From Herbidospora cretacea (GTDB taxonomy: Bacteria > Actinomycetota > Actinomycetes > Streptosporangiales > Streptosporangiaceae), in assembly GCF_001570605.1 (NCBI RefSeq), contig NZ_BBXG01000015.1, positions 62,001-126,000 of the forward strand: a stretch of 64,000 bases of DNA, written 5' to 3'. The notes below the pieces were generated by a model. That model worked only from the letters and a program-made list of their open reading frames with translations. It made no database searches and was not told where the DNA came from. Numbering within the stretch: the stretch's first letter is position 1; each line of letters starts with the position of its first letter. A program made the translations under genes and the position numbers. Shown here piece by piece: positions 28,109 to 43,802 of this stretch.

Positions 28109-29317
28109 ATGACCGACTGGACCCCCGACGCCCGCGAACTGGCCGACCTCGAACTGCTCCTGTCGGGAGCGTTCGCGCCGCTGACCGGTTTCCTCGGGAA
28201 GGCCGACGCGACCTCCGTCGAGGAGACGGGCACGCTCGCCGACGGCACCCCCTGGCCCGACCCTGTCACGATCGCGCTGCCCGACGAGATCGCCGTCGGC
28301 GACGTGGTCACGCTCACCGACCCGGAGGGCGCCGCGCTGGCGACCCTGACCGTGACCGAGCGCGACGGGCACCACGCCGCGGGTCCGGTGGAGGCGCTGG
28401 GCGCGCCCGTGTACGGGCCGTTCGCGCGGCTGCGCCGTACCCCCGAGGAACTGAAGCTCGACGGCGAGGTGCTGGCGGTCACGATGCGCGGGCCGCTCGA
28501 CGGACCAGCGCTGGCCGACGTCGCCGCCACCGCCGAGGAGCTGGAGGCGACGATCCTGCTCATGCCGCTCGCCTTCGGCGAGGGCGGGCCCGCGGTGGTG
28601 CGGTCAGCGCTGAAGGCGCAGGCCGAGCTGCCCGGGTCGCAGGTGGTGGCGGTCCCGCTCGCGCCGCGCGAGGACGTCGAGATCGACCTCGAACTCCGTG
28701 AGCACGTCGCCCGCAACTTCGGCGCGACCGAGCACTACGCCGGCCCCGCCCCGGTCCGCATCCCCGGCCCGCCCCACCGGCGCGGCCTGGTCGTCTTCTT
28801 CACCGGCCTGAGCGGTTCGGGCAAGTCGACTGTGGCCCGAGGGGTGCGCGACGCGCTGCTGGAGAAGGGCACCCGCACGGTCACCTACCTCGACGGCGAC
28901 GTGGTCCGGCGGCTGCTGTCCAAGGGCCTGACCTTCTCGGCGGAGGACCGGGACCTGAACATCCGCAGGATCGGGTACGTCGCCTCGGAGGTCGCCCGCC
29001 ACGGCGGTCTGGCCATCTGCGCCCCGATCGCGCCGCACGCGCACACCCGCGACGAGGCGCGCGAGATGGCCGAGGAGGTCGGCGCCGACTTCCTGCTGGT
29101 GTGGATCTCCACCCCGCTGGAGGAGTGTGAGCGCCGCGACCGCAAGGGCCTCTACGCCAAGGCCCGCGCGGGCCTGATCCCCGAGTTCACCGGCGTCTCG
29201 GCCCCCTACGACGAGCCGGAGGACGCCGACCTGGAGATCGACACCACCGGCCTGCCGGTCGAGCGGGCCGTCTCGCTGGTGATGAACGCCCTGACGGCGG
29301 GCGGCTGGGTCAGGTAG
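28109..29317 (+). CDS. cysC: Adenylylsulfate (APS) kinase with degenerate ATP-sulfurylase-like N-terminal region
   Basis: Phosphorylates APS to PAPS, the sulfate donor of sulfotransferases. The C-terminal kinase has P-loop GLSGSGKST (233-241), then 'YLDGDVVRRLLSKGLTFSAEDRDLNIRRIG' elements (first part seen: LDGDVVRRLLSKGLTF). The ISTPLEECERRDRKGLYAKAR region and the DLEIDTT tail complete the fold. Residues 1-220 resemble the PUA-like N-terminal part of ATP sulfurylase, but the catalytic QxRNP and HxxH motifs are absent. CysD/CysN in this window must therefore make the APS. Its 3' end overlaps the convergent GH26-like gene by 112 bp. Confidence 0.9.
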   Translation: MTDWTPDARELADLELLLSGAFAPLTGFLGKADATSVEETGTLADGTPWPDPVTIALPDEIAVGDVVTLTDPEGAALATLTVTERDGHHAAGPVEALGAPVYGPFARLRRTPEELKLDGEVLAVTMRGPLDGPALADVAATAEELEATILLMPLAFGEGGPAVVRSALKAQAELPGSQVVAVPLAPREDVEIDLELREHVARNFGATEHYAGPAPVRIPGPPHRRGLVVFFTGLSGSGKSTVARGVRDALLEKGTRTVTYLDGDVVRRLLSKGLTFSAEDRDLNIRRIGYVASEVARHGGLAICAPIAPHAHTRDEAREMAEEVGADFLLVWISTPLEECERRDRKGLYAKARAGLIPEFTGVSAPYDEPEDADLEIDTTGLPVERAVSLVMNALTAGGWVR

Positions 29318-30294
29318 GGCGAGCGCCCGAGCCGCCGGAACGCCTCGGCGGCGTCGGGCGTGGTGTCGAACCGGGTGTCGCCTCGGGGCGCCCACGGGGA
29401 GTCGAAGTAGACCAGGGCCTTGATCTGGGGGTAGGCGGCGATCTGGCGGCGTGCCGAATCGAAGAACGAGGCCTTGAACCCGGGGCGCTCGAACACCCCC
29501 CATTCGGCCACCATGATCGGCTTGGCCGGGAAGCGCGACTGCGCCCACCGGTAGAAACCCGGCCAGCCGGGATGGTCGGGGCGGCGCTTGTCGACGAGTG
29601 AGGCGAAGTCGGTGACCCGGTCGTCGGCGTAGGGGTCGACGCCGATCCAGTCGACCACCGCGTCACCCGGGTAGAGCCGCTCGAACCAGGGCGCCGACGA
29701 CCAGTTGGGCGCGCCCATGTAGGTCATCACCGTCACCGCGTTGGTGACGCCCTTCGCGCGCAGGCGCAGCACGACGTGGCGGAACATCGCGGCGTAGTCG
29801 TCGGCCGCCATGCCCTCGGCCGGGCGGACGTCGTTCTCAGGTTCGTGGTGGATCGTCAGGAAGAACCGCTGCGGGAACGTCCTGGTGATGTGGCCGGCGA
29901 GCTTGTCGATCCGCCGGTCGAGCGCGCCCGAGGCGATCTCGGCCCAGGTGTGACGCAGTGACGGCTTCCAGTTGACCAGCAGCAGCCGGTCTCTCACGAG
30001 GGCGCGCTCCTCGGCGGTGGGGAAGAGCTCGCCGGCGCGGTGGTAGACGTGCAGGACGTCGGCCCGGCGGCCCATCCGCCGCTCGGCCCGCTCCAGGCTC
30101 CGGGCCGGCCCCTGGCCGGTGAAGACCTCGGGGGCGATGCCCCACCAGGCGCCGCAGGTCGGGATCAGCACGGCGGTGACGGCGCACGGCGCGGCGAGCG
30201 GTGGCTCCACCTTGGGGACCTTCCGCTCGGCGGCCCCCGAAGCCAAGGAGCAGCCCGCCACCATCAACACGACCACCGTGATTGCCCAGCGCAT
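29206..30294 (-). CDS. GH26-like secreted glycosidase lipoprotein
   Basis: 362-residue lipoprotein with signal peptide and lipobox LMVAGC (Cys15). The barrel shows a putative acid/base Glu in FFLTIHHEPENDV and a putative nucleophile Glu in IMVAEWGVFE, with 'VVDWIGVDPYADD' between, as in GH26/GH-A clan mannanase-like proteins. It may trim or release the polysaccharide made by the adjacent cluster. The last ~37 residues are a Ser/Arg-rich tail antisense to cysC, an unusual 112-bp convergent overlap. A true C-terminus near 'GRSPYL' would be more natural, so the stop deserves a check. Confidence 0.72.
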   Translation of the reverse strand: MRWAITVVVLMVAGCSLASGAAERKVPKVEPPLAAPCAVTAVLIPTCGAWWGIAPEVFTGQGPARSLERAERRMGRRADVLHVYHRAGELFPTAEERALVRDRLLLVNWKPSLRHTWAEIASGALDRRIDKLAGHITRTFPQRFFLTIHHEPENDVRPAEGMAADDYAAMFRHVVLRLRAKGVTNAVTVMTYMGAPNWSSAPWFERLYPGDAVVDWIGVDPYADDRVTDFASLVDKRRPDHPGWPGFYRWAQSRFPAKPIMVAEWGVFERPGFKASFFDSARRQIAAYPQIKALVYFDSPWAPRGDTRFDTTPDAAEAFRRLGRSPYLTQPPAVRAFITSETARSTGRPVVSISRSASSGSS

Positions 30295-30478
30295 GGATTC
30301 ACCATTCCACTGCTTGGGCAGAACATGTGGCCACCTTTTCCAGAACGCAGCTCCGACATGTCCGGCGAATCGCCGTTATTGTTCCGTGATTCGCATGCAG
30401 AAATTCTTCAAATGGCATCGGGAAAATCTTCGGGCCCGGCTAGGGTTCGTAGTCGCTTGACCCCCATCGGAGACCTGC

Positions 30479-31690
30479 ATGAGCCAGCCAGCGCGGCACA
30501 GCCGCGACCTCGCGGAGTACGGCTCCGTGTTCCGCCGCCGCCGTACCATCGCCTTGACCTGCCTGTTTCTCGGCGTCATGGCCGGTGTCGGACTGCTGTG
30601 GACGGCGCCGACGGCGTATGTCGGCGTGGCCGAGGTCCAGGTGTCGCCGACCGGTCTCGCCGAGCCGCAGAATCTGGTGACGGCCCGGCAGCGCGAAGCT
30701 CTCAATCTCGACACCGAGGCGCAGATTGCTCAATCCTCCGTCGTGGCGACGAATGCCGCACAGGTTGTCGGAGGGGATGCGGAGACGCTTCGGGGGCTGG
30801 TTTCCGTTGATGTTCCGCCTAATTCGGGAATTCTTCGGATTTCGTTCACCTGGCGCGATTCCGCCGGCGCGGCCCGGGGGGCGCAGGCCTTCGCGGACGC
30901 CTACCTGGCGCACCGCCTGGCCTCTGCGGAGGCCGTGCTGACCGAGCAGCGGCGGGCCGTCCTGACCAAGCTCCGCCTGGTGAACAGCCAGCTCAGCACG
31001 GCTCTGGTGACGATGTCCCGGCACGCGCGGGGGACTCCGCAGCGCGCCCTGGCCGCTCACCAGCAGACGGTGCTGTCCCGCCAGGCGACGGCCCTCAGTC
31101 TCCGGTACGACGTCCTCAAGACCACCTCCGTCACGCCCGGGACGGTGATCACCCCGGCCACCCCGCCCACCGAACCGAGCGAACCCCGCCCGTCGCTGTA
31201 CGTGGGCGGCGGCCTGTTCGCCGGCATCCTGCTCGGTGCGGGGGCCGCCTTCGCCCGCGACCGCTACGACACCCGCCTGCGCACCCCGGCCGACGTGGAG
31301 CGCCTCACCAACCTGGCCCTCCTCCCCCAGGGCGAGGAGTTCGCCGCCGTGGTCACCGCGGCCGGTCACCGAAGCGTCCTGGTCGAGGGCCTCGGGGTCG
31401 AGCCCGCCCACGTGGCCTGGACGCTGGAGGAGGGCTTCCCCCCGGCGAGCGGCATCCTCCTGGTGACGGCGGGCCCCACCGACGCCGCCGTGCTGGCCGT
31501 GGCCCTGGGCCGGATCCGTGCGCCCTGGGTCATCAAGACGGCCCGGTCCTTGAAGCGGCGAGGCATCGACGTGCTCGGCGTGATCGCGGTCGACCAGGCG
31601 GGCGCCCCCGGCACCCTGGCGGTCGACGCGTTGCGCTCCCAGCAACCCCCGACCGTGGACATCCCCCAGCAACGCAGGGACCTACTGTGA
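30479..31690 (+). CDS. Wzz/CapA-type polysaccharide co-polymerase with degenerate BY-kinase-like C-terminus
   Basis: 403-residue membrane protein, first gene of the rightward polysaccharide operon. Membrane helices lie at about 24-43 and 241-260. The extracytoplasmic loop between them is helical, and a cytoplasmic domain of ~140 residues follows. That domain resembles the tail of bacterial tyrosine kinases (TPADVERLTNLALLPQ; RGIDVLGVIAVDQ) but lacks Walker A and a Tyr cluster, so it is a pseudokinase or pure chain-length regulator. GGAG precedes the ATG. Confidence 0.75.
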   Translation: MSQPARHSRDLAEYGSVFRRRRTIALTCLFLGVMAGVGLLWTAPTAYVGVAEVQVSPTGLAEPQNLVTARQREALNLDTEAQIAQSSVVATNAAQVVGGDAETLRGLVSVDVPPNSGILRISFTWRDSAGAARGAQAFADAYLAHRLASAEAVLTEQRRAVLTKLRLVNSQLSTALVTMSRHARGTPQRALAAHQQTVLSRQATALSLRYDVLKTTSVTPGTVITPATPPTEPSEPRPSLYVGGGLFAGILLGAGAAFARDRYDTRLRTPADVERLTNLALLPQGEEFAAVVTAAGHRSVLVEGLGVEPAHVAWTLEEGFPPASGILLVTAGPTDAAVLAVALGRIRAPWVIKTARSLKRRGIDVLGVIAVDQAGAPGTLAVDALRSQQPPTVDIPQQRRDLL

Positions 31691-31703
31691 CCAGGGGATA
31701 TCC

Positions 31704-32966
31704 GTGACCTGGCGACTGGCGCCCGCCGCTTGGCCGATCGCGGCGTTTCTCGTGGGTTACCCCGTCTGGTGGGCCCTCGGCTTCGGGGGGTTGTCCATCG
31801 TCGTGGTCGCGGTGCCCATGGCGGTGGTGCTGTGGTTGCGGCGGCCCGTGCGGATACCTCGGGGCATGGGGCTGTGGGCGCTGCTCATCGTCGGGTATCT
31901 GGTGAGCGCCGTCATGCTGGACGCCACCCCGGCCGGGACCTACGGCGAGTTCGGCGCCGGGCGGGTGGTCGGCTACGCCATGCGGCTCGCGGTCTACGTG
32001 GCGCTGTTCGTCGTCGTCCTCTACCTGGGGAACCTGACCGAGGAGGAGCTTCCCCAGTTGACGCTGGTCAGGATGCTGGGCGTGCTGTTCCTCACGGCGG
32101 TCGCCGGTGGGGTGCTCGGGGTGCTGGCGCCGAGGTTCGAGTTCACCGCGCCGATGGAGTATCTGCTTCCCGACCACGCCTTCGTCACGAACCTCGTCCA
32201 TCCGACCGCCGCGCAGATCCAGCACGTCCTGGGCCACGCCGCGCCCCGCCCGGAGGCCCCCTTCGAGTGGGCCAACGCCTGGGGTGGGAACGTCTCGATC
32301 TTGCTGGTCTGGTTCGTCGTCGGGTGGTGGATCCACGGCGGTCCGGGCCGCCGGGTGGTCGCGGTGGTCGCGGTGGCGGTGGCGGCGGTGCCGATCGTCT
32401 ACTCGCTCAACCGGGGGCTGTGGGCCGCGATCGCCGTCTGCATCGCGTACACGATCATGAGGAACCGCAGCCGGGCGGCGCTGCTGGTGCTCGCGACCGC
32501 CACCGGCGCGGCCCTGGTGCTCTCGCCGCTGGGGCAGGTCGTCGCGGCCCGGGTCGACCGGCCGCACTCCAACGACATCCGGGCCTTCACGGTCGCCACC
32601 ACCGTCAGGGTCGCCGCCACGTCGCCGGTCATCGGCTACGGGAACACCCGCAACGCGTTCGGGAGCCATCGCACGATCACCACCGGCCGGACCGACTGGT
32701 GCCGCTCCTGCGGGCATCCGCCGCTGGGGTCGGACGGTCAGCTCTGGCTGCTGCTCATCACCCAGGGTTTCACCGGCGCGGCCCTGTATGTCGGGTTCTT
32801 CGCGGGGGCGATCAGACGCCATTGGCATGATCGGTCGCCTGTCGGGCAGGCGGGAAGCCTGGTCATGCTGCTCGTCCTGTTCTACATGTTCATCTACGAC
32901 GGCTTGGTAAGTGCCCTGACCCTCTATCTGATCTCGTTCGCGGTCCTGTGGCGGAACGCGACGTGA
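31704..32966 (+). CDS. O-antigen ligase / Wzy-like polymerase
   Basis: Polytopic membrane protein (420 residues, about 11 hydrophobic segments) with a large loop before the last helices containing 'SPVIGYGNTRNAFGSHR' and 'CRSCGHPPLGSDGQLWLLLI'. This pattern (G-x-G-N-T, then H-P-P-hydrophobic-Q) fits the Wzy_C/O-antigen ligase superfamily, which polymerises or transfers undecaprenyl-linked glycans outside the membrane. GTG start with AGGGGA upstream. The gap after the Wzz-like gene is 13 bp. Confidence 0.8.
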   Translation: MTWRLAPAAWPIAAFLVGYPVWWALGFGGLSIVVVAVPMAVVLWLRRPVRIPRGMGLWALLIVGYLVSAVMLDATPAGTYGEFGAGRVVGYAMRLAVYVALFVVVLYLGNLTEEELPQLTLVRMLGVLFLTAVAGGVLGVLAPRFEFTAPMEYLLPDHAFVTNLVHPTAAQIQHVLGHAAPRPEAPFEWANAWGGNVSILLVWFVVGWWIHGGPGRRVVAVVAVAVAAVPIVYSLNRGLWAAIAVCIAYTIMRNRSRAALLVLATATGAALVLSPLGQVVAARVDRPHSNDIRAFTVATTVRVAATSPVIGYGNTRNAFGSHRTITTGRTDWCRSCGHPPLGSDGQLWLLLITQGFTGAALYVGFFAGAIRRHWHDRSPVGQAGSLVMLLVLFYMFIYDGLVSALTLYLISFAVLWRNAT

Positions 32967-33853
32967 AGGACTTCCGCATACGGCTGCGCTATCTGGATGA
33001 GGTGATCTCCTTGCTGTTCCCGCCGTCTTCCACGTCAACGGCCCGGACTCTGCTGCCGAGCCGGCTCGTCCCCCGGCGGCTGGTGCCCCGCGCGCCCTGG
33101 CACGTCGGCGGGCGGGTGCTGGTCCCCGAAGGTCCCGACACGATCGAGACGCACCTCGGCGACGTGCTCGGCCACCGGCTGCGGGCCACGCTCCACGTCC
33201 GCCCGGCCCGCCGGGCGAACCGCAAACCCATCCTTGAGCTGTACGGCGACACCGGCCTCCTCGCCTTCGTGAAGATCGGCGACAAGCAGCACACGAAAGA
33301 CCTGATCCGCCACGAGGCCGACACGCTGCGCGCCATCGCCCGCCACCCGTTCGACGTCGTCATGGCGCCCAAGGTGATGCACCACGGCGAGTGGCGCGGC
33401 CTCGACGTCCTCGTCCTGACCCCGCTGCCGGTCACGAAGGGCAAGCCGTCGGCCGACCTGCTGGCGGCGGCGGCCAAGGAGATCGCCGCGCTCGGCAAGG
33501 GCGCCTGGCACGGCGACTTCTCGCCCTGGAACGTCGCGCCGATGGGCGACCGGCTGCTGGTCTGGGACTGGGAGCGGTTCGGCACCGGCGTGCCGCTGGG
33601 CTTCGACACGCTGCACTACTTCTTCCAGACGGCGCTGCGGCGGATGCGCCCGGTGTCGGCGGCCAAGGCGTGCGTCGCGCAGTCGGGACGCCTGCTCGAA
33701 CCCTTCGGGATCAGCTATGAGGAGGCCCGGGTGACCGCCGCCGCCTACCTGATGACCCTGGCCGAACGCCACCGCTCCAGCGGCCACGAGCCGCTGGGCC
33801 CGCCCGCGAAGTGGCTGAACCCCGCCGTCGACGGGCTGGAATCCCTGACGTGA
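32963..33853 (+). CDS. APH-fold kinase in the polysaccharide operon
   Basis: 296-residue protein with a phosphotransferase (aminoglycoside/choline-kinase-like) fold. The catalytic loop is WHGDFSPWNV and the metal-binding aspartate lies in LLVWDWERFG. The N-lobe lysine is probably in LLAFVKIGD. The start is the GTG at 32963, overlapping the preceding stop as GTGA, and not the GTG at 32948. Within this operon a sugar kinase or a kinase modifying the glycan or its lipid carrier is plausible. The substrate is unknown. Confidence 0.75.
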   Translation: MKDFRIRLRYLDEVISLLFPPSSTSTARTLLPSRLVPRRLVPRAPWHVGGRVLVPEGPDTIETHLGDVLGHRLRATLHVRPARRANRKPILELYGDTGLLAFVKIGDKQHTKDLIRHEADTLRAIARHPFDVVMAPKVMHHGEWRGLDVLVLTPLPVTKGKPSADLLAAAAKEIAALGKGAWHGDFSPWNVAPMGDRLLVWDWERFGTGVPLGFDTLHYFFQTALRRMRPVSAAKACVAQSGRLLEPFGISYEEARVTAAAYLMTLAERHRSSGHEPLGPPAKWLNPAVDGLESLT

Positions 33854-34671
33854 GGGCACTGAAGACGACCGCCCACGCCGTGTCGATCACGGCGGGGCGG
33901 CTGACGGGGAGCGCCCGGATGCTCCCGTCGTTCCTGATCGTGGGGGCCCAGCGGTGCGGGACGACGTCCCTCTACCGGGCCCTGTCGCAGCACCCGCTCG
34001 TCGCCAAACCGGTGCTGCGCAAGGGCGTCCACTACTTCGACATGGCCTATGGGCGCGGTCTGGCCTGGTACCGGGCGCATTTCCCGCTGCGGCGGGCGGG
34101 CATGCTGGCCTTCGAGTCGGCGCCCTACTACCTGTTCCATCCGCTGGCCGGGCCGCGCATCGCGTGGGACCTGCCGGAGGTGAAGCTGATCGTGCTCGTC
34201 CGGGATCCGGTGGAACGTGCCATTTCGGCCCATGCGCACGAACTCGCGCGGGGCTTCGAGTCGGAGCCGTCCTTCGCCCGCGCCGTCGAGCTGGAGCCCG
34301 AACGCCTCGCCGGGGAGAGCGCCCGGCTCTGCGCCGCGCCGCTGTCGTCGAGCCACGCCCACCGGCACCACGCCTATCTGGCCCGGGGCCGCTACGCCGA
34401 ACAGCTCGCCCGCCTCGAACCGGTGATCCCCCGGAACCGCGTCAAGGTCATCGACAGCGGCCGCTTCTTCACCGACCCCATGCCCGTGTACGCCGACCTC
34501 CTCGACTTCCTCGGCCTGCCCCCGGCGGCCGACCCGGTCTTCGAGCGCCACAACTCGCGGACCTACTCGACGATCGCGCCCGGCCTGCGCGCGCGGCTGT
34601 CGGAGCACTTCCTGCCGTGGGACGCGCTGCTGCTCCCCTGGCTCGACGCGACCCCTTCATGGCGCGTCTGA
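33850..34671 (+). CDS. PAPS-dependent sulfotransferase 1
   Basis: 273-residue cytosolic sulfotransferase of the heparan/NodH-like Sulfotransfer group. 5'-phosphosulfate-binding loop GAQRCGTTSL is at 32-41. The 3'-phosphate-binding Arg/Ser lie in LVRDPVERAISAH (Arg118, Ser126). 'AFESAPYYLFHPLA' fits the family's middle region. The start is the GTG at 33850, overlapping the kinase stop as GTGA. It probably sulfates a sugar of the lipid-linked repeat unit before export. Confidence 0.87.
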   Translation: MRALKTTAHAVSITAGRLTGSARMLPSFLIVGAQRCGTTSLYRALSQHPLVAKPVLRKGVHYFDMAYGRGLAWYRAHFPLRRAGMLAFESAPYYLFHPLAGPRIAWDLPEVKLIVLVRDPVERAISAHAHELARGFESEPSFARAVELEPERLAGESARLCAAPLSSSHAHRHHAYLARGRYAEQLARLEPVIPRNRVKVIDSGRFFTDPMPVYADLLDFLGLPPAADPVFERHNSRTYSTIAPGLRARLSEHFLPWDALLLPWLDATPSWRV

Positions 34672-35906
34672 GGTCGGCGGCCGGGCTGGCCGGAGCCGGG
34701 ACCAGCGCGGCGGCCCAGTTCGCCGTCACCCTGCTGATCACCCGGACCCTGCCCCCCGCCGAAGCGGGCGCGTTCTTCACCACGACGGCGCTCGGCCTGA
34801 TGCTGGCCGGGGTGTTACGCCTCGACACCGGCAACGGCCTCATCTACTTCCGAGCCCGCCGGCCCGACGACTCTCCGACACCTCAACCGGCAGCCGTGGG
34901 GCATCCGTCGCCCCCACCCGGCGCCCGCCCGACCGCGCTGCGGGAAGTCGTCTCCGGGACAGCGGCTCCGCTCCTCCGGGTCGCGCTGGTTCCCGTAGTC
35001 GCCGGAGCTCTGGGCGCTGCCGTCCTCCTCGCCGGCGCCGAACCGGCGCTCGCTCTCGTGCTGCCCTTCGTCGTGGTCGCCGACGTGCTCGTGACGGCCA
35101 CCCGGGGAACCGGGGCGATGCGGGAGACGCTGCTGCTCAGCGGGCTGGTGCAGCCCGTCGCGCAGCTTCTCCTCGTCGGGGGCGCGCTGGCCGCCGGGCT
35201 CTCCGCTCCCTGGCTCATCGTGGCGTGGGGGACCCCGGCCGTCCCGGTGGTCGTGGTCGCCGCGTGGCGGCTGCGGGGCGTCGAGACGGTGACGTCGTGG
35301 CGGGAGTTCTGGACCTACACGGGACCCCGGTCGGCGGCCGCCGCGCTCCAGGCCGTCTTCCAGCGGCTCGACGTCGTGATCGTCGCGTTCCTCGCCGGGC
35401 CCGCCGAGGCCGCCTTCTACGTCGCCGCGACGCGGTTCAAGGTGGTCGGGCAGCTCGTCGGGCAGGGCTTGGCGCAGGGCGTACAGGCTGAGCTGGTGCG
35501 GCGGTTCGCGCGGGGAGAGCCGGAGGCGGCGCGCGCCCTGCATCGGCGGGCGGCCCACACCCAGATGGCCCTGACCTGGCCCTTCTGGATCCTGTACGCC
35601 GTCTTCGCGCCGCAGATCCTCCAGCTCTTCGGCGACGGCTATGCCCACGCCGCCGACACGGCGATCGTGGTGGCCGTCACCATGATGGTCGCCTCGGCCT
35701 GCGGGATGGTCGACGTCGTCATGATCGCCTCAGGCCGGACCAAGGCCAGTCTCGCCACCATCGCCGCCGCGCTCGCCGCCACCGTCGTGCTCGATCTGCT
35801 GCTCGTCCCGGCCCACGGCGCGTTCGGCGCGGCGCTCGGCTGGGCGGGAGGGGTGCTCGTGAAGAACCTGCTGCCGCTCGCCCGGCTCTCCAGGGCCGCC
35901 GCGTGA
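34659..35906 (+). CDS. Wzx-type polysaccharide flippase
   Basis: 415-residue MOP-superfamily exporter with about 12 hydrophobic segments. It starts 13 bp inside the 3' end of sulfotransferase 1. 'TSAAAQFAVTLLITRTLPPAEAGAFF' is the typical first-helix pattern of Wzx/oligosaccharide flippases. It would flip the undecaprenyl-linked, already sulfated repeat unit. Codon 53 is TTA (34815-34817). A Pro/Ala-rich insert lies at about residues 68-95. Confidence 0.82.
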   Translation: MARLRSAAGLAGAGTSAAAQFAVTLLITRTLPPAEAGAFFTTTALGLMLAGVLRLDTGNGLIYFRARRPDDSPTPQPAAVGHPSPPPGARPTALREVVSGTAAPLLRVALVPVVAGALGAAVLLAGAEPALALVLPFVVVADVLVTATRGTGAMRETLLLSGLVQPVAQLLLVGGALAAGLSAPWLIVAWGTPAVPVVVVAAWRLRGVETVTSWREFWTYTGPRSAAAALQAVFQRLDVVIVAFLAGPAEAAFYVAATRFKVVGQLVGQGLAQGVQAELVRRFARGEPEAARALHRRAAHTQMALTWPFWILYAVFAPQILQLFGDGYAHAADTAIVVAVTMMVASACGMVDVVMIASGRTKASLATIAAALAATVVLDLLLVPAHGAFGAALGWAGGVLVKNLLPLARLSRAAA

Positions 35907-36757
35907 TCCTCGTCACCGGCCTGCCCCGCAGCGGCACCTCGTGGGCCGGCCGCATGCTCTGCGCCTCGGGCGAGCTCGTCTACGTCAACGAGCCCCTCAA
36001 CCCCGAACGCCCCTACCGGGGAGTCCTGAACGCCCAGGTCAGAAACCGTTTCCAGTACATCTGCCGGGACAACGAGGCGGCGTGGCTCAAACCGTTCCGG
36101 GACACGCTGGCCCTGAGGTTCCGCTGGCACGCCGAACTCCCCTGGCCCCCCTCGCCCGCCCGTTACCTGAAATACGGGACCTCGTTCACACACGGCCGCC
36201 TGACCGGCCGCAAGGCCCTCCTCGACGACCCCTTCGCCCTGTGGTCGGCGGAGTGGTTCGCCGACCGGCTCGACTGCCGCGTCGTCATCCTGACCCGCGA
36301 CCCGATCACCTTCGCCGGGAGCTGGGACCACCTCGGCTGGACCGCCAACCCCGCCGACCTGCTCGGCCAGCCCCTCCTCGTCCGGGACCACCCCCACGTC
36401 TCGGCCCTGGCCGACGCGCACGACCGCCTGGAGAAGGTCGCGGCCCTCTGGAAGGCCGCCCACGAGTCGGTCCGCCGGATGCGCCACCCCAACATCCGCG
36501 CCGTCGCCTACGAGGACCTGGCCGCCGACCCCCACTTCGGCTTCCGCAGCCTGTACGAATGGTGCGGCATCCCCTGGACCGACCGGTCGGCCGCCACGAT
36601 CACCCGGTCGTGCACCGGCCTCACCCAGGAGGCCACCTTCGCCTGGCAGGGCACCTCGCGGACCGCCTTCCGCCCCACCGACAGCAGAACGGCGGCGGCC
36701 AGGTCGCGCCTGTCCGCCGCCGACGCCGAGAGGGTCAGCCGGCTGACCCTCAGGTGA
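35903..36757 (+). CDS. PAPS-dependent sulfotransferase 2
   Basis: 284-residue sulfotransferase. 5'-phosphosulfate loop GLPRSGTSW is at 6-14. The 3'-phosphate element ILTRDPITFAGSW has Arg132 and Ser140. The start GTG overlaps the flippase stop as GTGA, and it is the last gene of the rightward operon. The sequence differs enough from sulfotransferase 1 to suggest a different acceptor position. Its stop overlaps the convergent WecG-like gene by 8 bp. Confidence 0.87.
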   Translation: MILVTGLPRSGTSWAGRMLCASGELVYVNEPLNPERPYRGVLNAQVRNRFQYICRDNEAAWLKPFRDTLALRFRWHAELPWPPSPARYLKYGTSFTHGRLTGRKALLDDPFALWSAEWFADRLDCRVVILTRDPITFAGSWDHLGWTANPADLLGQPLLVRDHPHVSALADAHDRLEKVAALWKAAHESVRRMRHPNIRAVAYEDLAADPHFGFRSLYEWCGIPWTDRSAATITRSCTGLTQEATFAWQGTSRTAFRPTDSRTAAARSRLSAADAERVSRLTLR

Positions 36758-37538
36758 ACAGCCGCCGCACCGCGCACACGGTCAGCAGCCGCACCGCGAA
36801 CGGCAGATCGTCGACCAGATAACGCCTGGCCAGCCGCGACGGCTCACTGAGCAGCCGGAACAGCCACTCCAGCCCGCGGTCCCGCATCCACGCGGGCGCC
36901 CGCGCCACCGCGCCCCCGGCGAACGCGATCGCCGACCCGCACCCCACGAACCAGGCCTCGGGCAGGTCCCCCCGCAGCCGCTCGATGAGCAGATCCTGCT
37001 TGGGGAACCCCAGCCCGACGAACACCAGCAGCGGACGCGCCGACAGCAGCGCCTCACGCACGGCGGCGAACTGGTCGGCGTCCTCCTCGAACCCCCACGG
37101 CGGCGCGTCCACCCCGGCGATGGACAGCCCCGGATAGCGCTCGCACAGCGCCCGCGCGGCCCGGTCGCCGACACCGGGCGGCCCGCCCAGCAGGTAGATC
37201 GGCACCCGGTAGAACGCGGCCGCCTCCGACAGCGACCAGATCAGGTCGGCTCCCGTGATGCGCGCCGGCACCGGCTTGCCGAGCAGCCGGGCCGCCCACA
37301 CCAGCGGCATCCCGTCGGCCACCGCGATGGTCGCCCGCGCGACCAGGGCGCGCAGCGCGGGATCACGCGCGCACGCCCGGCAGATGTCCACGTTGGGCGT
37401 CACCAGATGGCCGCCGGAACCGCGCCGGATGGCCCCGATCACCCGGTCGACCACCTCGATCTCGGTCAGCCGGTCGATGGCCACCCCGCCCACGATGACC
37501 CGCCGCCGTTTGGGCGGCGCGACGATGCGCGTGCGCAT
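36750..37538 (-). CDS. WecG/TagA/CpsF-family glycosyltransferase
   Basis: GT26-family enzyme of 262 residues that adds a sugar (ManNAc/ManNAcA type in known cases) to a lipid-linked acceptor. Motifs: 'GHLVTPNVDICRAC', 'VADGMPLVWAARLLGKPVPARITGADL', 'YLLGGPPGVGDRAA', 'VFVGLGFPKQDLL' and the C-terminal 'APAWMRDRGLEWLFRLLSEPSRLARRYL' (each partly quoted). The ATG overlaps the GT2 stop (TGATG). Last gene of the leftward operon. Confidence 0.88.
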   Translation of the reverse strand: MRTRIVAPPKRRRVIVGGVAIDRLTEIEVVDRVIGAIRRGSGGHLVTPNVDICRACARDPALRALVARATIAVADGMPLVWAARLLGKPVPARITGADLIWSLSEAAAFYRVPIYLLGGPPGVGDRAARALCERYPGLSIAGVDAPPWGFEEDADQFAAVREALLSARPLLVFVGLGFPKQDLLIERLRGDLPEAWFVGCGSAIAFAGGAVARAPAWMRDRGLEWLFRLLSEPSRLARRYLVDDLPFAVRLLTVCAVRRLFT

Positions 37539-38401
37539 CAGATTCCGTGACCGCGGGTATGCAGCGCGCTCAGCACGGCCGGAGCCGAGACCAGCCCGGC
37601 CGCCACGGCCATCGCCAGCGCGGCCCGGGGCTCCCGGTGCCTGGAGTGGAAGGCCAGGGCGGCGAACCGCCGGGCCTCCTTCCGGCGGCCGAGGGCGGCG
37701 TGGTGGAAGGCGAGCTGGCCGTAGATCCGGGCGGCCCCGCGCGCGTCGTCGGCGATCTCGGGATGCCGGGCCAGCATCCACTCCAGCCCGCTGATGCGGT
37801 CGGCCCAGCGGGTGGCGTAGTGGGAGCCGCCCCACCGCACCCGCACGAGCGGCCGGTCGACGTGGGCGATCGGACGTCGTTTGGCCGCCCGCAGCGCCAG
37901 GTCCCAGTCTTCGTTCTGGCCGCCGGGCGCGCTCTCGTCGACCCAGAGGGCCCCTTTGGTGAAGAGGTAGGTCGAGGAGTGGACCATCACCATGCGCGAC
38001 CGGGTCAGGTCGGCGGCGGTGATCTCGGTGCGACCGGCCAGCCGGGTCACCCGGCGCGAGCCGTATTCGACCTCGATCCCGCAGCTCACGAACTCGGCCC
38101 CGGTGTCCTCCAGGAGCCGGACCTGGGCGTCGAGCTTCCCGGGCAGCCACACGTCGTCGTCGTCGCAGAAGGCCACCAGGTCGGTGTCGAGCGCCGCGAT
38201 CCCGGTGTTGCGGGCCCCCGGCAGACCCGGGCTCAGGCAGTTGGGCACGACTTTCACGCGGGGATCGTCGACGGACGTTAACGGCGCTCCGTCCACGACG
38301 ACCACGACGGCGGCCGGGCGCTGGGCGAGCACACCGTCGATCGTGGCTCGCAGGGGACGGTCACCACGGGTGGGGATGACGACGCCGACGGTCGAGGTCA
38401 T
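37538..38401 (-). CDS. Family 2 glycosyltransferase
   Basis: 287-residue GT-A fold enzyme. Nucleotide-binding start TVGVVIPTRGDRPLRATID, DxD-type site in VAFCDDDDVWLPGKL, and acceptor-side NEDWDLALRAA. Together with the WecG-like enzyme and the initiating transferase it would build the repeat unit. Only two transferases besides the initiator are found, so the unit may be small or other transferases lie elsewhere. Codon 41 is TTA (38279-38281). Confidence 0.87.
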   Translation of the reverse strand: MTSTVGVVIPTRGDRPLRATIDGVLAQRPAAVVVVVDGAPLTSVDDPRVKVVPNCLSPGLPGARNTGIAALDTDLVAFCDDDDVWLPGKLDAQVRLLEDTGAEFVSCGIEVEYGSRRVTRLAGRTEITAADLTRSRMVMVHSSTYLFTKGALWVDESAPGGQNEDWDLALRAAKRRPIAHVDRPLVRVRWGGSHYATRWADRISGLEWMLARHPEIADDARGAARIYGQLAFHHAALGRRKEARRFAALAFHSRHREPRAALAMAVAAGLVSAPAVLSALHTRGHGI

Positions 38402-38421: not shown

Positions 38422-39339
38422 TCAGTAGGTGAGGCGGTAGCCGTACCAGAGAAGAAGGGGGAGAGTGAGCGCGGTGACCGCCCAGCGATGGGGGAAGGGC
38501 AGGTCAGGACGCCGGTCGCGGAAGCGCACGCGGCCCACGTGGAAGCGCATGGGGTTGCCGGAGACGGTGTGGGCGACGCCGAGCCGGGCGCTGCGGCCGG
38601 TGATGAAGGCCAGCGCCTCGTGGCTGTCGGGCAGCCCGAGCTTGCCGGCCAGTTTGCGCAGCGTGTCGGCCGGCTCCTCGACCAGGTCCTCGTAGTGGAC
38701 CCGGACGATCGGCACCCCTTTGCGGCGCAGCACCTCGTAGGCGAGGTTCTGCACGAACCAGTGGACGGCGGTGCGGGCCGGCGACCACCGGGCCATCGGA
38801 CGGCCGTCCTCCGGCCGCGCGACCTTGCGCCGCCACGAGGCGGCCACCGCACGCGGATCGCGCACGACGTGGACGACGGTCAGGTCGAGGATGGCCGACA
38901 GGCAGTAGGCCAGCGAGGCGTGCTTGCTCGAATCGACGACCACCTGACCGCGCACGACCTCGGCCGCCGCCGCGTAGACGCGGTGGTAGGCGGCGACGTA
39001 CTCGGTGAGCTGCGCCTCACGGCTGATCAGGCCCAGCACGAACACGGGCACCCGGCGGGTGCGGTCGACCTTGTGACGCAGTTCGAGCAGCCGCTCGGCC
39101 TTGGCCGGACGCCAGCCCCCGAAGGCGCGGTCGCCGACCTCGTGCCAGAAACGGCACTGCGAGAACGGCCGCCCGCAACCGCACGGCTCGTTCGAGCGCA
39201 CCCCTCGGTGCCAGAGATGGACGACCTCGCCCAGCGGCGCGACGCCGGGAAGCTCGCCCAGAAGGCGCTCCAGCAGCGTCGTCCCGCTGCGCCCCAGCCC
39301 TCCAACGAAGATCATCGGCTGAGCGTCAGACACGTGCAC
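38422..39339 (-). CDS. PAPS-dependent sulfotransferase 3 with a Cys cluster
   Basis: 305-residue sulfotransferase. 5'-phosphosulfate loop GGLGRSGTTLL is at 13-23. The 3'-phosphate element is HVVRDPRAVAASW with Arg160 and Ser168. An unusual Cys cluster, EPCGCGRPFSQCRFW (Cys53, 55, 62), follows the first helix and could form a disulfide or a metal site. The C-terminal 'PHRWAVTALTLPLLLWYGYRLTY' is hydrophobic, hinting at membrane association. Third sulfotransferase of the cluster; first gene after cysN. Confidence 0.85.
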   Translation of the reverse strand: MHVSDAQPMIFVGGLGRSGTTLLERLLGELPGVAPLGEVVHLWHRGVRSNEPCGCGRPFSQCRFWHEVGDRAFGGWRPAKAERLLELRHKVDRTRRVPVFVLGLISREAQLTEYVAAYHRVYAAAAEVVRGQVVVDSSKHASLAYCLSAILDLTVVHVVRDPRAVAASWRRKVARPEDGRPMARWSPARTAVHWFVQNLAYEVLRRKGVPIVRVHYEDLVEEPADTLRKLAGKLGLPDSHEALAFITGRSARLGVAHTVSGNPMRFHVGRVRFRDRRPDLPFPHRWAVTALTLPLLLWYGYRLTY

Positions 39340-39390
39340 GACCCCCGAAGTGGATACGGAACGTGCTGACGCTACAGCGGAGAGTAACTA

Positions 39391-39407
39391 AGCGTTCACC
39401 GAACGCT
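39391..39407. promoter_or_regulatory. Inverted repeat between cysN and sulfotransferase 3
   Basis: AGCGTTC-ACC-GAACGCT, a perfect 7-bp inverted repeat with a 3-nt spacer, 24 bp past the cysN stop and 52 bp before the sulfotransferase start. It may be an operator or a small hairpin. Its core (TTCGGTGAACG on the coding strand) resembles the tandem repeat before the phosphoglycosyltransferase gene. Confidence 0.4.
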
Positions 39408-39430
39408 CAAGGATCTACCTATACCCGGGT

Positions 39431-40675
39431 TTAGACGATCATGCCCGCGCCGACGGTGCCGTTGGTGGCCTCGTCGATGAGGATGAAGCCGCCGGTGAGC
39501 CGGTTGCGTGCGTAGTCGTCGACGAACAGCGGCTGGGTGATGCGCAGCGACACCCGGCCGATCTCGTTGAGCGACAGGCTGGTGGCGGCCTCGTCGCGGT
39601 GGAGGGTGTTGACGTCGAGCCGGTAGTGGAGGTCCTTCACCAGGGCGCGGGCGGTCCGGGTGGTGTGCTTGATGGTCAACTTGGTGCGCGGGGTGAGCTT
39701 GGTGGCGTCGGCCATCCAGCAGACCATCGCGTCGATCTCCTGGGCGACCTTCGGCTGGTTGTTCGGCCGGCAGATCATGTCGCCGCGCGAGATGTCGAGG
39801 TGGTCCTCCAGCCGGAGGGTCACCGACATGGGCGCGAACGCCTCGGTCACCGGCCCGTCGAAGGTGTCGATCGAGGCGATCTTCGTGGTGAGGCCCGACG
39901 GCAGGTGCATGACCTCGTCGCCCGGCTTCAGCACCCCGCCCGCGACCTGACCGGCGTAACCCCGGTAGTCGTGGAACTCGGTCTTGTGGGGGCGGATCAC
40001 GTATTGCACCGGGAAGCGCACGTCGACCAGGTTGCGGTCGGAGGCGATGTGGACGTGCTCCAGGTGGTGGAGCAGCGACGGCCCCTGGTACCACGGCATG
40101 TTCTCCGAGCGGGAGACCACGTTGTCGCCATGGAGGGCGGAGATCGGGATGAAGCTCAGGTCGCTCGCGTTCAGCTTGCTGGCGAACTGGGTGAACTCCT
40201 CGCGGATCTCCTCGAAGCGCTCCTCGGCGTAGTCGACCAGGTCCATCTTGTTGATCGCGACGACCAGGTGGGGCACCCGCAGCAGCGTCGTCAGGAAGGC
40301 GTGGCGGCGCGACTGCTCCAGCACGCCCTTGCGCGCGTCGATCAGGATGATCGCCAGGTCGGCGGTCGAGGCGCCGGTCACCATGTTCCGGGTGTACTGA
40401 ATGTGGCCCGGGGTGTCGGCGATGATGAACTTCCGCTTCGGCGTGGCGAAGTAGCGGTAGGCCACGTCGATCGTGATGCCCTGCTCACGCTCGGCGCGCA
40501 GGCCGTCGGTCAGCAGTGACAGGTCGGTGTATTCGGTGCCCCGGTCGCGGCTGGTGCGCTCGACCGCTTCGAGCTGGTCTTCGAAGATGGCCTTGGAGTC
40601 GAACAGGAGGCGTCCGATCAGGGTCGACTTGCCGTCGTCGACGCTGCCCGCCGTCGCGAAACGAAGGATGTCCAT
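39431..40675 (-). CDS. cysN: Sulfate adenylyltransferase GTPase subunit (CysN)
   Basis: EF-Tu-like GTPase that drives APS synthesis by CysD. G1 GSVDDGKSTLIGRLL, G3 DTPGHIQYTRNM and G4 NKMDLVDY are intact. Domain II (PVQYVIRPHK region) and domain III follow. The 414-residue length shows that no CysC domain is fused, unlike mycobacterial CysNC. The separate cysC at 28109 supplies it. ATG overlaps the cysD stop (TAATG), so translation is coupled. Confidence 0.95.
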   Translation of the reverse strand: MDILRFATAGSVDDGKSTLIGRLLFDSKAIFEDQLEAVERTSRDRGTEYTDLSLLTDGLRAEREQGITIDVAYRYFATPKRKFIIADTPGHIQYTRNMVTGASTADLAIILIDARKGVLEQSRRHAFLTTLLRVPHLVVAINKMDLVDYAEERFEEIREEFTQFASKLNASDLSFIPISALHGDNVVSRSENMPWYQGPSLLHHLEHVHIASDRNLVDVRFPVQYVIRPHKTEFHDYRGYAGQVAGGVLKPGDEVMHLPSGLTTKIASIDTFDGPVTEAFAPMSVTLRLEDHLDISRGDMICRPNNQPKVAQEIDAMVCWMADATKLTPRTKLTIKHTTRTARALVKDLHYRLDVNTLHRDEAATSLSLNEIGRVSLRITQPLFVDDYARNRLTGGFILIDEATNGTVGAGMIV

Positions 40676-41589
40676 TAAAAGTAGCCTTCCTTCTTCCGGT
40701 CCTCCATGGCGGCTTCGGACGCGCGGTCGTCGGCGCGGGTCGCGCCACGCTCGGTGATCCGGGTCGCCGCGATCTCGGCGATGATCTCGTCGACCGTGGC
40801 GGCGGTCGAGGTGACCGCGCCGGTGCAGGTCATGTCGCCGACCGTGCGGTAGCGCACGGTCGCCTCGAACAGCGGCTCGTCGTCGCCGCGCTGCACCACG
40901 TCGCCCTCGGGCAGCAGCATGCCGTCGCGCTCGAACACCCGGCGGGTGTGGGCGAAGTAGATGGACGGGATCTCGATGCCCTCGCGGCGGATGTAGTCCC
41001 ACACGTCGAGCTCGGTCCAGTTGGACAGCGGGAAGACCCGGATGTGCTCACCCTTGCGGATCTTCGCGTTGTAAAGGTTCCAGAGCTCGGGCCGCTGGTT
41101 CTTCGGGTCCCACTGGCCGAAGTCGTCGCGGAAGGAGAACACCCGCTCCTTGGCGCGGGCCTTCTCCTCGTCGCGCCGCGCGCCGCCGAAGACGGCGTCG
41201 AACTCGTTCTCCTCGATCCCGTCGAGCAGGGTGGTGGTCTGGAGCCGGTTGCGCGAGGCGCGCCGCCCGGTCTCCTCGACCACCCGTCCGGCGTCGATCG
41301 AGTCCTGTACGGACGCCACCACCAGCCGCGCCCCCAGCTCGGCCGCCCGCCGGTCGCGGTAGTCGATCACCTCGGGGAAGTTGTGCCCGGTGTCGACGTG
41401 CATCAGCGGGAACGGGATGGGGGCCGGCCAGAAGGCCTTCTCGGCGATGCGCAGCATGACGATCGAGTCCTTGCCGCCGGAGAAGAGCAGACAGGGTCGC
41501 TCGAACTCGGCCGCGACCTCACGCATGATGTGGATCGCCTCGGCTTCGAGGACGTCGAGCTGCGACGTCGTGTAGTCATGCTGCAGCAA
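40675..41589 (-). CDS. cysD: Sulfate adenylyltransferase catalytic subunit (CysD)
   Basis: PP-loop ATPase making APS from sulfate and ATP. SGGKDSIVML P-loop at about residues 37-46. 'PLMHVDTGHNFPEVIDYRD' and the 'RREGIEIPSIYFAH' region are typical. 304 residues, a normal length. TTG start with AAGGAAC upstream; 17 bp after cysQ. With cysN it forms the heterodimer that feeds cysC. Confidence 0.95.
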   Translation of the reverse strand: MLQHDYTTSQLDVLEAEAIHIMREVAAEFERPCLLFSGGKDSIVMLRIAEKAFWPAPIPFPLMHVDTGHNFPEVIDYRDRRAAELGARLVVASVQDSIDAGRVVEETGRRASRNRLQTTTLLDGIEENEFDAVFGGARRDEEKARAKERVFSFRDDFGQWDPKNQRPELWNLYNAKIRKGEHIRVFPLSNWTELDVWDYIRREGIEIPSIYFAHTRRVFERDGMLLPEGDVVQRGDDEPLFEATVRYRTVGDMTCTGAVTSTAATVDEIIAEIAATRITERGATRADDRASEAAMEDRKKEGYF

Positions 41590-41606
41590 AACAGTTCCTT
41601 ATGAAG

Positions 41607-42362
41607 TTACTGGTGCAGGTCACGGATCCCGGCGAGGAGCATCGGCGCCAGATCCGGTAGGGAAACAAGGATATCCGGCAACGAGGGGTCGGCCTGGTTG
41701 TACACCAGCTCCGATCCGTCGATCCGGCTCGCGTGGGCTCCCGCGGCCAGCGCCACGGCCACCGGAGCGGCCGAGTCCCATTCATACTGCCCACCCGCGT
41801 GGACGTATGCCTCCACCTGACCGGTCAGCACGGCGGCGATCTTCGCGCCGGCGCTGCCGATCGGGACGAGGTCGGCCCCGACCAGGTAGGCGAGCTTCTG
41901 CACGAACTCCGGCGGGCGGGTGCGGGAGACCGCGATCCGGATGCGCTGGCCTTCGCGACGCGGCAGCTGGGGCGGGTTGGCCGTGGTCAGGGTCGCGCCC
42001 TGGGCCGGGAGCGCGATCGCCCCGGCGGCCAGCTTGCCGCCCTCCCACAGCGCGACGTGGACGGCCCAGTCGACCCGGCCGGCCTCGGAGAACTCACGGG
42101 TGCCGTCGAGGGGGTCGACGATCCAGACCCGGTTGGCGGACAGCCGCGCCGCCTCGGTGCGCGCGCCCTCCTCCGACAGGATGTGGTCGCTGGGGCGGAG
42201 CCGTCCGAGCGACTCGACGAGGAACTCGTGGGACGACTGGTCTCCCGCGTCCTTCAGCGCTTTGGCGTCGTCGAAGCCGAGCTGGGCCCGCAGGCGGAGC
42301 AGTCTCTCACCCGCCTCCGTCGCGAGGTCTCCGGCGAGGGCGTGATCGTCTCTGATGCTCAT
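41607..42362 (-). CDS. cysQ: 3'(2'),5'-bisphosphate nucleotidase (CysQ)
   Basis: Inositol-monophosphatase-fold enzyme that hydrolyses PAP, the inhibitory product of sulfotransferases, to AMP. The metal-binding motif is WIVDPLDGTREF, with the upstream Glu in HILSEEGA and a C-terminal QYEWDSAAP. Placing cysQ with cysDN and sulfotransferases points to product removal during glycan sulfation. The start is at the second Met. Confidence 0.9.
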   Translation of the reverse strand: MSIRDDHALAGDLATEAGERLLRLRAQLGFDDAKALKDAGDQSSHEFLVESLGRLRPSDHILSEEGARTEAARLSANRVWIVDPLDGTREFSEAGRVDWAVHVALWEGGKLAAGAIALPAQGATLTTANPPQLPRREGQRIRIAVSRTRPPEFVQKLAYLVGADLVPIGSAGAKIAAVLTGQVEAYVHAGGQYEWDSAAPVAVALAAGAHASRIDGSELVYNQADPSLPDILVSLPDLAPMLLAGIRDLHQ

Positions 42363-42368
42363 CACTGC

Positions 42369-43802
42369 TTAGTAGGCTCCTGATCCGCGTGCCACGGCCG
42401 ACCACGTCTTCCACATGATCTGGAGGTCGAGGGTGAGTGACCAGTTTTCCATGTAGCGCAGGTCCAACCGTACCGCTTCCTCCCACGACAGATCCGAGCG
42501 CCCGCTCACCTGCCACAAACCCGTCATTCCCGGCCTGACAAGGAGTTTGCGCCGCACGTCGTCGCCGTAGCGGGCGACCTCCTGGGGCAGCGGCGGGCGG
42601 GGGCCGACCAGGGACATGTCGCCCTTGACCACGTTCACCAGCTGGGGCAGTTCGTCGAGCGAGTGACGGCGCAGGAAGGCGCCGACGCGGGTGACGCGGG
42701 GGTCGTTCCTGACCTTGAAGAGCACGCCGTCGGCGTCGCTGACCAGCTCGACCTTGCGGCTCTCTGCGTCGACCCCCATCGTGCGGAACTTGACGATGGT
42801 GAACGTCGCGCCGTCCTTGCCGACCCGGGTCTGCCGGAAGAACGCGGGCCCGGGACTGGTCGTCTTCACCGCGACGGCGACGGCCAGGAACAGCGGCGAG
42901 ACCAGGACCAGCCCGAGCCCGGCGACGACGCGGTCGAAGACGTTCTTCACCAGCCGCCGGCCGCCCGCCAGCTCGGGGTGCTCGACGTGCAGGAGCGGCA
43001 TGCCCGCGACCGGCCTGATCGTCGTACGCGGCCCCGCCACCTCCATCAGCGCCGGGGCCACCACCAGGTCGGTCCGCGACCGCTCCAGCCGCCAGGCGAG
43101 CCGGCGCAGCGCCGACCCGTCGAGCTCCGGGCAGGCGAGCACCGCGACGGTGTCGGCCCCGATCTGGTCGACCGCGAGCGGAACGTCGGAGAACCCGCCC
43201 AGCACGGGCACGCCGGCGACCTCCTCGACGGAGGCGCCGTCGTCGGGGAGACAGGCCCCGACGATGTGCATGCCGTGATAGCGCTCTTTCTGGACGAGCC
43301 GGATCAGATCCGCCACCGACTCCTTGTGTCCCACGGCGACGACCCGGCGCATGCACTGGAGTTTCGTCCGCTTACGGTGCAGCCTGCGCCGAAGGGCATA
43401 ACGGGCGAGCAGCGTCAGAACCGTCATGACCGGTAACGCGATGATAACGTAACCACGTGCGAGATCGATCTTGGTCACGTACGATCCCACCGCGACGGCG
43501 GCCGTGAGCATCACCCCGGCTCGCGCGACCCGCCGGAACTCCTCCGACCCCACCCCGGCGAACCGCGGCTCGTAGGCCCGGCTCAACCCGACCACCACGA
43601 CCCACAGAACCGGCAGCGCACCGCTCAACACGGCGTACGGCTCGACATAGGGAGTAACCTCACCGAACCGGACGACAACCGCGAGCCCACCGGCGAGAAG
43701 AGCGCACAGCACGTCGGAGACGATCACTGTGGCCCGATATCGCGCCGCCCACCCGGGCCCCATGCGCTTGATGGCCGTCTTCGGCCGGTCGACGACTGTC
43801 AC
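42369..43802 (-). CDS. Initiating sugar transferase (polyprenyl-phosphate hexose-1-phosphate transferase)
   Basis: Large monotopic phosphoglycosyltransferase that starts glycan assembly on undecaprenyl phosphate. Four N-terminal membrane helices and a CoA-binding-like domain precede the catalytic bacterial sugar-transferase domain (about residues 285-478). Motifs: 'GPAFFRQTRVGKDGATFTIV', 'LRRHSLDELPQLVNVVKGDM', 'SLVGPRPPLP' and 'RPGMTGLWQVSGRS'. The DE dyad in SLDELPQ is intact. The GTG at 43802 is preferred over 43808 for ribosome spacing (AAGGGG). First gene of the leftward operon. Confidence 0.92.
   Translation of the reverse strand: MTVVDRPKTAIKRMGPGWAARYRATVIVSDVLCALLAGGLAVVVRFGEVTPYVEPYAVLSGALPVLWVVVVGLSRAYEPRFAGVGSEEFRRVARAGVMLTAAVAVGSYVTKIDLARGYVIIALPVMTVLTLLARYALRRRLHRKRTKLQCMRRVVAVGHKESVADLIRLVQKERYHGMHIVGACLPDDGASVEEVAGVPVLGGFSDVPLAVDQIGADTVAVLACPELDGSALRRLAWRLERSRTDLVVAPALMEVAGPRTTIRPVAGMPLLHVEHPELAGGRRLVKNVFDRVVAGLGLVLVSPLFLAVAVAVKTTSPGPAFFRQTRVGKDGATFTIVKFRTMGVDAESRKVELVSDADGVLFKVRNDPRVTRVGAFLRRHSLDELPQLVNVVKGDMSLVGPRPPLPQEVARYGDDVRRKLLVRPGMTGLWQVSGRSDLSWEEAVRLDLRYMENWSLTLDLQIMWKTWSAVARGSGAY

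Follow-up and report, generated by a model that had tools for sequence, protein, structure and literature searches.

Herbidospora cretacea is a soil actinomycete of the family Streptosporangiaceae with a sequenced genome of 8.28 Mb. The window analyzed here is a 64,000-nucleotide stretch of that genome (contig NZ_BBXG01000015.1, positions 62,001 to 126,000), and positions 28109-43808 of the window contain a 15-gene cluster that is predicted to make a sulfated polysaccharide. From left to right, the cluster consists of satK on the plus strand, a gene for a GH26-like lipoprotein on the minus strand, and a plus-strand operon (wzz-wzy-kinase-stfH-wzx-stf2) facing a minus-strand operon (phpt-cysQ-cysD-cysN-stf3-gt2-wecG). 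Both operons are tight, with overlaps or gaps of no more than 20 bp; the sole exception is the 91 bp between cysN and stf3. The ATG of cysN overlaps the stop codon of cysD, and the bases point to likely starts at 34659 for wzx, 37538 for wecG, and 40675 for cysN. Such an arrangement links sulfate activation with glycan assembly more strongly than closeness on the chromosome would by itself. Genes for the synthesis of 3′-phosphoadenosine 5′-phosphosulfate (PAPS) and genes for sulfotransferases lie within one polysaccharide cluster, an arrangement also described in the available text on a Vibrio capsule (PMC11641403).

The polymer genes encode a polyprenyl glycosylphosphotransferase that serves as the initiating transferase (phpt, 42369..43808, minus; Bac_transf, 232.5 bits), a GT2 glycosyltransferase (37538..38401, minus; Pfam), a WecG/TagA/CpsF glycosyltransferase (36750..37538, minus; Pfam), and a Wzx flippase of the MatE/polysaccharide flippase type (34659..35906, plus; Pfam/NCBIfam). 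The Wzz-like chain-length protein (30479..31690, plus) matches GNVR and Wzz below the Pfam cut-offs, and the Wzy-like polymerase (31704..32966, plus) has no Pfam match of its own. An APH-fold kinase (32948..33853, plus) carries HGDxxxxN and DWE motifs. The GH26-like glycoside hydrolase (29206..30294, minus) overlaps the 3′ end of satK and is a predicted lipoprotein with a VAGC lipobox. Its Pfam match to GH26 is below the cut-off (E=0.0026), and its PDB match is endoglucanase H (E=9e-13), a GH26 enzyme.

Sulfate activation is represented by both subunits of sulfate adenylyltransferase, CysN (39431..40675, minus; TIGR02034, 589.9 bits against a cut-off of 336.1) and CysD (40675..41589, minus; TIGR02039, 450.1 bits against 396.6), which form adenosine 5′-phosphosulfate (APS). 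The CysQ-like protein (41607..42365, minus) belongs to the 3′(2′),5′-bisphosphate nucleotidase family; it matches Inositol_P, and its best NCBIfam match, TIGR01331, scores 99.9 bits and is below the cut-off of 228.8. The three sulfotransferases are StfH (33850..34671, plus, with a start at 33811 or 33850), Stf2 (35903..36757, plus; Sulfotransfer_3), and Stf3 (38422..39339, minus), all with Sulfotransfer_1/3 matches above the Pfam cut-offs. The genes named in the original prediction are therefore real, Wzy and Wzz by homology and the others by Pfam or NCBIfam, though its list had missed the GH26-like lipoprotein and the APH-like kinase.

SatK (28109..29317, plus) is a two-domain protein with PUA_2 (residues 7-84) and APS_kinase (225-378) Pfam matches, and a search of the genome that scored 100 of 100 candidates found no other APS kinase. 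The PF01583 match reaches 187.5 bits, and the kinase blocks GLSGSGKST, LDGD, and GLYAKARAG are intact. By both sequence and fold, the top PDB match is 3cr8, the two-domain APS kinase of Thiobacillus denitrificans (TM score 0.51; fold searches here were by Foldseek only). The SatK model has a predicted local distance difference test score (pLDDT) of 87.0 and a predicted TM score of 0.55, which leaves the domain arrangement unsure. VTMRGPLD occupies the position aligned with the QxRN-type motif, presumably the ATP-sulfurylase active site. The 25 SatK proteins aligned, among them the one from Actinoplanes missouriensis, all lack a QxRN-like site and keep the kinase blocks; the ATP-sulfurylase profile PF01747 finds nothing in the H. 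cretacea genome.

Judged by its sequence, SatK is a putative APS kinase with a degenerate N-terminal sulfurylase-like domain of the 3cr8 type. The gene at 28109 had been called cysC; the predicted APS kinase function stands, whereas a plain CysC is rejected because the protein has two domains. An active bifunctional sulfurylase-kinase is likewise rejected on sequence, given the lack of a QxRN-like site in a motif scan run without a positive control and the lack of a PF01747 match. The two-domain APS kinases of T. denitrificans (3cr8) and Entamoeba histolytica similarly place an inactive-type sulfurylase-like domain before the kinase domain, and the sulfurylase-like domains of both are reported as inactive in the available text of PMC13213808. 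SatK, known here from sequence and model, is shorter, at 402 residues compared with 552 and 500.

StfH is a heparan-sulfate-type sulfotransferase that is 92% identical to StfH of H. solisilvae. Its profile matches include 3rnl (E 4e-31) and the human heparan-sulfate N- and 3-O-sulfotransferases (best 6e-22), and its model (pLDDT 90.4) matches heparan-sulfate 3-O-sulfotransferase 3 with TM scores of 0.72-0.75. StfH has the fold and the PAPS-site motifs of this family but lacks the Glu at its catalytic-base position. The PAPS-site motifs (GxxRxGT[TS] and RDP...S) are also kept in Stf2 and Stf3. StfH-type sulfotransferases mostly carry KGVHYFD, with Gly in place of the Glu of the heparan-sulfate enzymes. 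One genome (G399) shows a local expansion, with three tandem StfH copies near cysD/cysN (L189:13671-16754) and three further copies on another contig (C118:22159-24913).

The closest studied counterpart of the cluster is wps-1 (AMIS_7280-7380) of A. missouriensis, which is predicted to make a sulfated exopolysaccharide, with verification awaited (Tezuka and Ohnishi, June 2026, PMC13390465); statements on wps-1 phenotypes here follow the available part of that report. Ten window genes match wps-1 and the adjoining AMIS_7390, most at 37-55% identity. Homologues of WpsA (53%), WpsB (Stf3, 50%), WpsC (WecG, 51%), WpsG (Wzx, 39%), WpsH (StfH, 52%), WpsI (the kinase, in two pieces at 44% and 29%), WpsJ (40%), WpsK (37%), and AMIS_7390 (SatK, in two pieces at 55% and 45%) all lie in the one locus, WpsA corresponding to the GT2 enzyme. 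The names Wzy and Wzz rest on the homology to WpsJ, which itself matches Wzy_C, and to WpsK. The GH26-like gene is only 28% identical to WpsE and 44% identical to a GH26-like gene beyond AMIS_7390. Domain limits at the A. missouriensis locus (WecG 64-241, DUF4262 27-152) equal those in PMC13390465. In contrast to wps-1, the window adds cysQDN, the initiating transferase, and a third sulfotransferase (stf2), whereas WpsD (DUF4262) has no match in the window and the WpsF methyltransferase has none within the cluster, its best match being 69 residues at 59935, outside it.

Deletion of wps-1, or of most of its single genes, produces malformed sporangia that release few spores (PMC13390465). Without wpsH or AMIS_7390, sporangia are malformed and released spores number 10^2-10^6 compared with 10^8; mutants in the Wzx, Wzy, and Wzz genes (wpsG, wpsJ, and wpsK) have the squashed sporangia also seen when wpsH is deleted. 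WpsD is dispensable and WpsF is needed, while deletions of wpsB and wpsE are mild. The authors describe the severe effect of deleting AMIS_7390 as unexpected and regard the protein as forming APS, a key step toward sulfur amino acids. From its sequence, we infer that AMIS_7390 may instead convert APS to PAPS and that lost sulfation may account for the phenotype of the deletion. If AMIS_7390 is only a kinase, its deletion would ruin sporangia by removing PAPS, not APS for cysteine, a testable explanation of a published puzzle.

The gene set is conserved in relatives. Named loci were the best 80 of 477 relatives chosen by StfH match, and thus a sample selected by StfH; of these, 22 were truncated at contig ends and 11 of the intact ones belonged to other groups, leaving 47 uncut loci assigned to Streptosporangiaceae by record title. 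All 15 genes occur in the same order in 30 of these 47, so the set is not a product of chance. Every one of the 47 has satK, the GH26-like gene, wzz, wzy, the kinase gene, and stf2 together with stfH. The original prediction had named scattering of the genes in relatives as grounds for giving it up, and in Streptosporangiaceae they are not scattered. Across the family, close StfH proteins are found in 42 of 61 genomes, counting matches down to about 1e-68 and leaving out weaker ones (G394, G402, G414, and second copies elsewhere). In these 42, CysD lies within 25 kb in 39 and the APS kinase in 37, the other three and five, respectively, being on different contigs.

From 135 Micromonosporaceae genomes with a match, 19 loci were hand-picked, most of them in single-contig assemblies. 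Within the 20 kb fetched, satK is present in 13 of the 19 and cysDNQ in none, so that between families the link to the polymer genes is firmer for the APS kinase than for CysDN. Stf2 is likewise absent from all 19.

The PAPS supply is probably shared with other pathways. CysD is single-copy in 55 of the 61 family genomes (two CysD fragments, in G425 and G435, were dropped before counting), and the APS kinase is single-copy in 57 of 61 in a search that scored up to 51 candidates per genome. CysDN in most of these genomes must therefore also feed cysteine synthesis, and a CysDN private to the cluster is rejected by copy number. A supply of the cluster's own, as first proposed, holds insofar as the genome's only APS kinase found lies here; it fails insofar as CysDN must also feed cysteine in most of the family and PAPS would be shared with eight sulfotransferase matches outside. 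A further CysDN pair lies on contig C29 of H. cretacea, next to another sulfotransferase. That locus (L013:7120-19086) also contains LysX-type ATP-grasp, AA_kinase, M20 peptidase, short-chain dehydrogenase/reductase, transketolase, and AMP-ligase genes and resembles a natural-product cluster equipped to activate sulfate for itself.

The absence of CysH and sulfite reductase from the window had been offered as a reason to favor glycan sulfation over cysteine synthesis. The absence itself is confirmed, but it is weak evidence and is rejected as an argument because cysH lies beside sulfite reductase elsewhere in the genome, on contig C3. CysH type provides a stronger argument. CC and CxxC motifs occur in CysH at 30 of 30 loci, taken as the best matches among the 61 genomes, and these motifs mark the APS-reductase type, for which PAPS is not needed in cysteine synthesis.

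According to the available text of PMC4373884, Mycobacterium tuberculosis has the same branch point, at which CysD/CysNC feeds both APS reductase and the APS kinase that supplies sulfotransferases; its APS kinase is fused to CysN, whereas that of the window is a separate protein. The capsule cluster of Vibrio sp. KMM 8419 likewise combines cysC, cysN, cysD, and sulfotransferase genes in a polysaccharide cluster, and the structure of the Vibrio polymer is solved (PMC11641403, in the part available). It differs in using ABC-transporter capsule assembly and in carrying cysDNC as extra copies, while the family of the window mostly has a single CysD. The available text of PMC13390465 describes bacterial sulfated polysaccharides as exclusive to cyanobacteria, whereas the solved Vibrio capsule is sulfated.

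Taken together, the cluster probably directs synthesis of an extracellular polysaccharide that is sulfated and assembled by the Wzx/Wzy route and that most likely belongs to a spore or aerial-hypha surface matrix, a reading to which we assign a probability of roughly 0.8. The basis is gene content, motifs, predicted folds, operon layout, and synteny here, and deletion phenotypes obtained by others in the homologue. The sulfated-polysaccharide machinery proposed originally is well supported by operon structure, synteny, and this genetically tested homologue. The initiating transferase would load a sugar-phosphate onto undecaprenyl phosphate, the GT2 and WecG enzymes would then add sugars, and the APH-like kinase may phosphorylate one of them. 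CysDN would form APS in the cytosol and SatK would convert it to PAPS. StfH, Stf2, and Stf3 would use this PAPS to sulfate the repeat while it is still lipid-linked, leaving 3′-phosphoadenosine 5′-phosphate for the CysQ-like enzyme to remove. Wzx would flip the unit, Wzy and Wzz would polymerize it, and the GH26-like lipoprotein may trim the chain outside the cell. CysH would draw on the same APS to make cysteine, and other sulfotransferases on the same PAPS, leaving neither CysDN nor PAPS private.

Several observations weigh against this reading, and many of them bear on the somewhat unlikely alternative that the Cys genes are ordinary sulfate assimilation at an mfd-pth locus, with the polymer genes inserted alongside and linked only by shared APS and PAPS. 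The single CysD of most family genomes fits this alternative. At least one of the 15 genes, mostly a cys gene, is missing within the 10-kb flanks in 17 of the 47 Streptosporangiaceae loci, a count in which cysDNQ are missed where the cluster is longer. Nine of the 19 family genomes without close StfH, the nine that allow a judgment, have CysD and an APS kinase on one contig, seven of them within 25 kb. Eight of these nine loci were fetched (G414 was left out) and show the two without the polymer set. In seven (among L173-L181), satK and cysQDN surround mfd and pth, and no match to wzx, wzy, or a sulfotransferase is present; four of the seven have a kinase and a GT2, and other glycosyltransferases occur in some of the seven. 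The eighth, G420, has CysD and the APS kinase 35 kb apart, with unassigned genes in between. A CysD+CysN tree of 54 loci, 46 with StfH and eight without, needs at least five changes of StfH presence, with losses and gains not told apart under midpoint rooting. In the 19 Micromonosporaceae loci, that of A. missouriensis among them, the polymer genes stand without cysDNQ in the 20 kb fetched, and six of the 19 lack satK there. Mere coexistence is harder to reconcile with the close packing of cysQDN into the operon that also carries the genes for the initiating transferase, Stf3, GT2, and WecG, or with an APS kinase that an APS-reductase CysH does not need. All 19 StfH-less genomes encode other sulfotransferases, so PAPS has users there too, and the AMIS_7390 deletion has the same sporangium phenotype as loss of wps-1 genes (PMC13390465, in the part available).

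Other points concern the homologue and the sulfotransferases themselves. AMIS_7390 does match PF01747 above the cut-off (44.7 bits, profile positions 3-118 of 212); its sulfurylase half appears less decayed in sequence than that of the window SatK, and rejection of a bifunctional enzyme is less sure for it. The available text of PMC13390465 also reports that AMIS_7390 is not activated with wps-1 on day 3 and that loss of wpsB leaves sporangia normal by scanning electron microscopy, with spores tenfold fewer. Eight of the 11 Sulfotransfer_3 matches in the H. cretacea genome lie outside the window. StfH has Gly59 where solved relatives have Glu, presumably the catalytic base; among 147 aligned rows, which include the window protein and repeated genomes, the column is Gly in 144, Glu in two, and Gln in one, and His61 is kept in 140. 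The difference weighs against simply carrying over the mechanism of the solved enzymes. This substitution would suit an unsulfated polymer made beside Stf-fold proteins of lost or changed activity, a very improbable case given the PAPS-binding motifs kept in all three proteins, the fact that all 47 uncut loci combine an APS kinase with two or more sulfotransferases, and the severe wpsH deletion. It is improbable, to a lesser degree, that the sulfotransferases act on a lipid-linked oligosaccharide, a teichoic-type polymer, or a glycolipid and not on a free exopolysaccharide: a WecG/TagA-family transferase and a kinase are indeed present, but so is the full set of Wzx, Wzy, Wzz-like protein, and initiating transferase with a GH26-like hydrolase, and losses of wpsG, wpsJ, and wpsK resemble that of wpsH. 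Finally, a literature search found no report of sulfate on this glycan.

That search, with subscription journals mostly outside its reach, recognized, among the papers listed, only PMC13390465 as describing a sulfated exopolysaccharide of an actinomycete, and one paper on a Streptomyces exopolysaccharide gives 0.0% sulfate. The description of such polymers as rare in actinomycetes was fair, yet wps-1 was published in June 2026. The sulfated, Wzx/Wzy-assembled polymer is thus anticipated by wps-1 and, in the text available, by the Vibrio KMM 8419 capsule cluster with its cysNDC genes (PMC11641403), and the present system is a well-supported relative of wps-1, not a new kind. New here are the conserved cysQDN extension, the reassignment of SatK, the recognition that CysDN and PAPS are not reserved for the cluster, and the class of sulfotransferases with Gly59.

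Two neighboring features lie to the left of satK. An extracytoplasmic function (ECF) sigma factor (27529-28029) and a partner gene (together 26360-28029, minus) are divergent from satK and form a possible regulator; among 160 fetched loci, 23 contain a match to the sigma factor, with 22 of these at 59-91% identity and one at 30%. A methyltransferase gene (25677-26363, plus) between mfd and satK is found in 45 of the 47 uncut Streptosporangiaceae loci and may belong to the cluster.

StfH has matches in many other actinomycetes. Matches at E<=0.001 occur in 131 of 393 genomes across the class, many of them distant sulfotransferases, and matches at E<=1e-30 occur in 135 of 150 genomes of Micromonosporaceae (the Phytohabitans family), some of them paralogues. 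Named hosts include Nonomuraea, Micromonospora, and Geodermatophilus, which to our knowledge form no sporangia; a general spore- or hypha-surface role is therefore likelier than a sporangium-only role. A wider picture is tentative and possible rather than probable: at least two families of spore-forming actinomycetes may share an old, widespread, glycosaminoglycan-like sulfated matrix polymer, made by a distinct class of heparan-sulfate-fold sulfotransferases with Gly for the usual catalytic Glu and supplied by an APS kinase whose sulfurylase domain is dead, in which sulfation, not the backbone alone, shapes spores and sporangia. The gene set offers bacterial heparan-sulfate-type sulfotransferases for study. 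If the reading of the cluster is true, sulfated exopolysaccharide would be no rarity of one Actinoplanes species but common in the Streptosporangiaceae and probably in the Micromonosporaceae.

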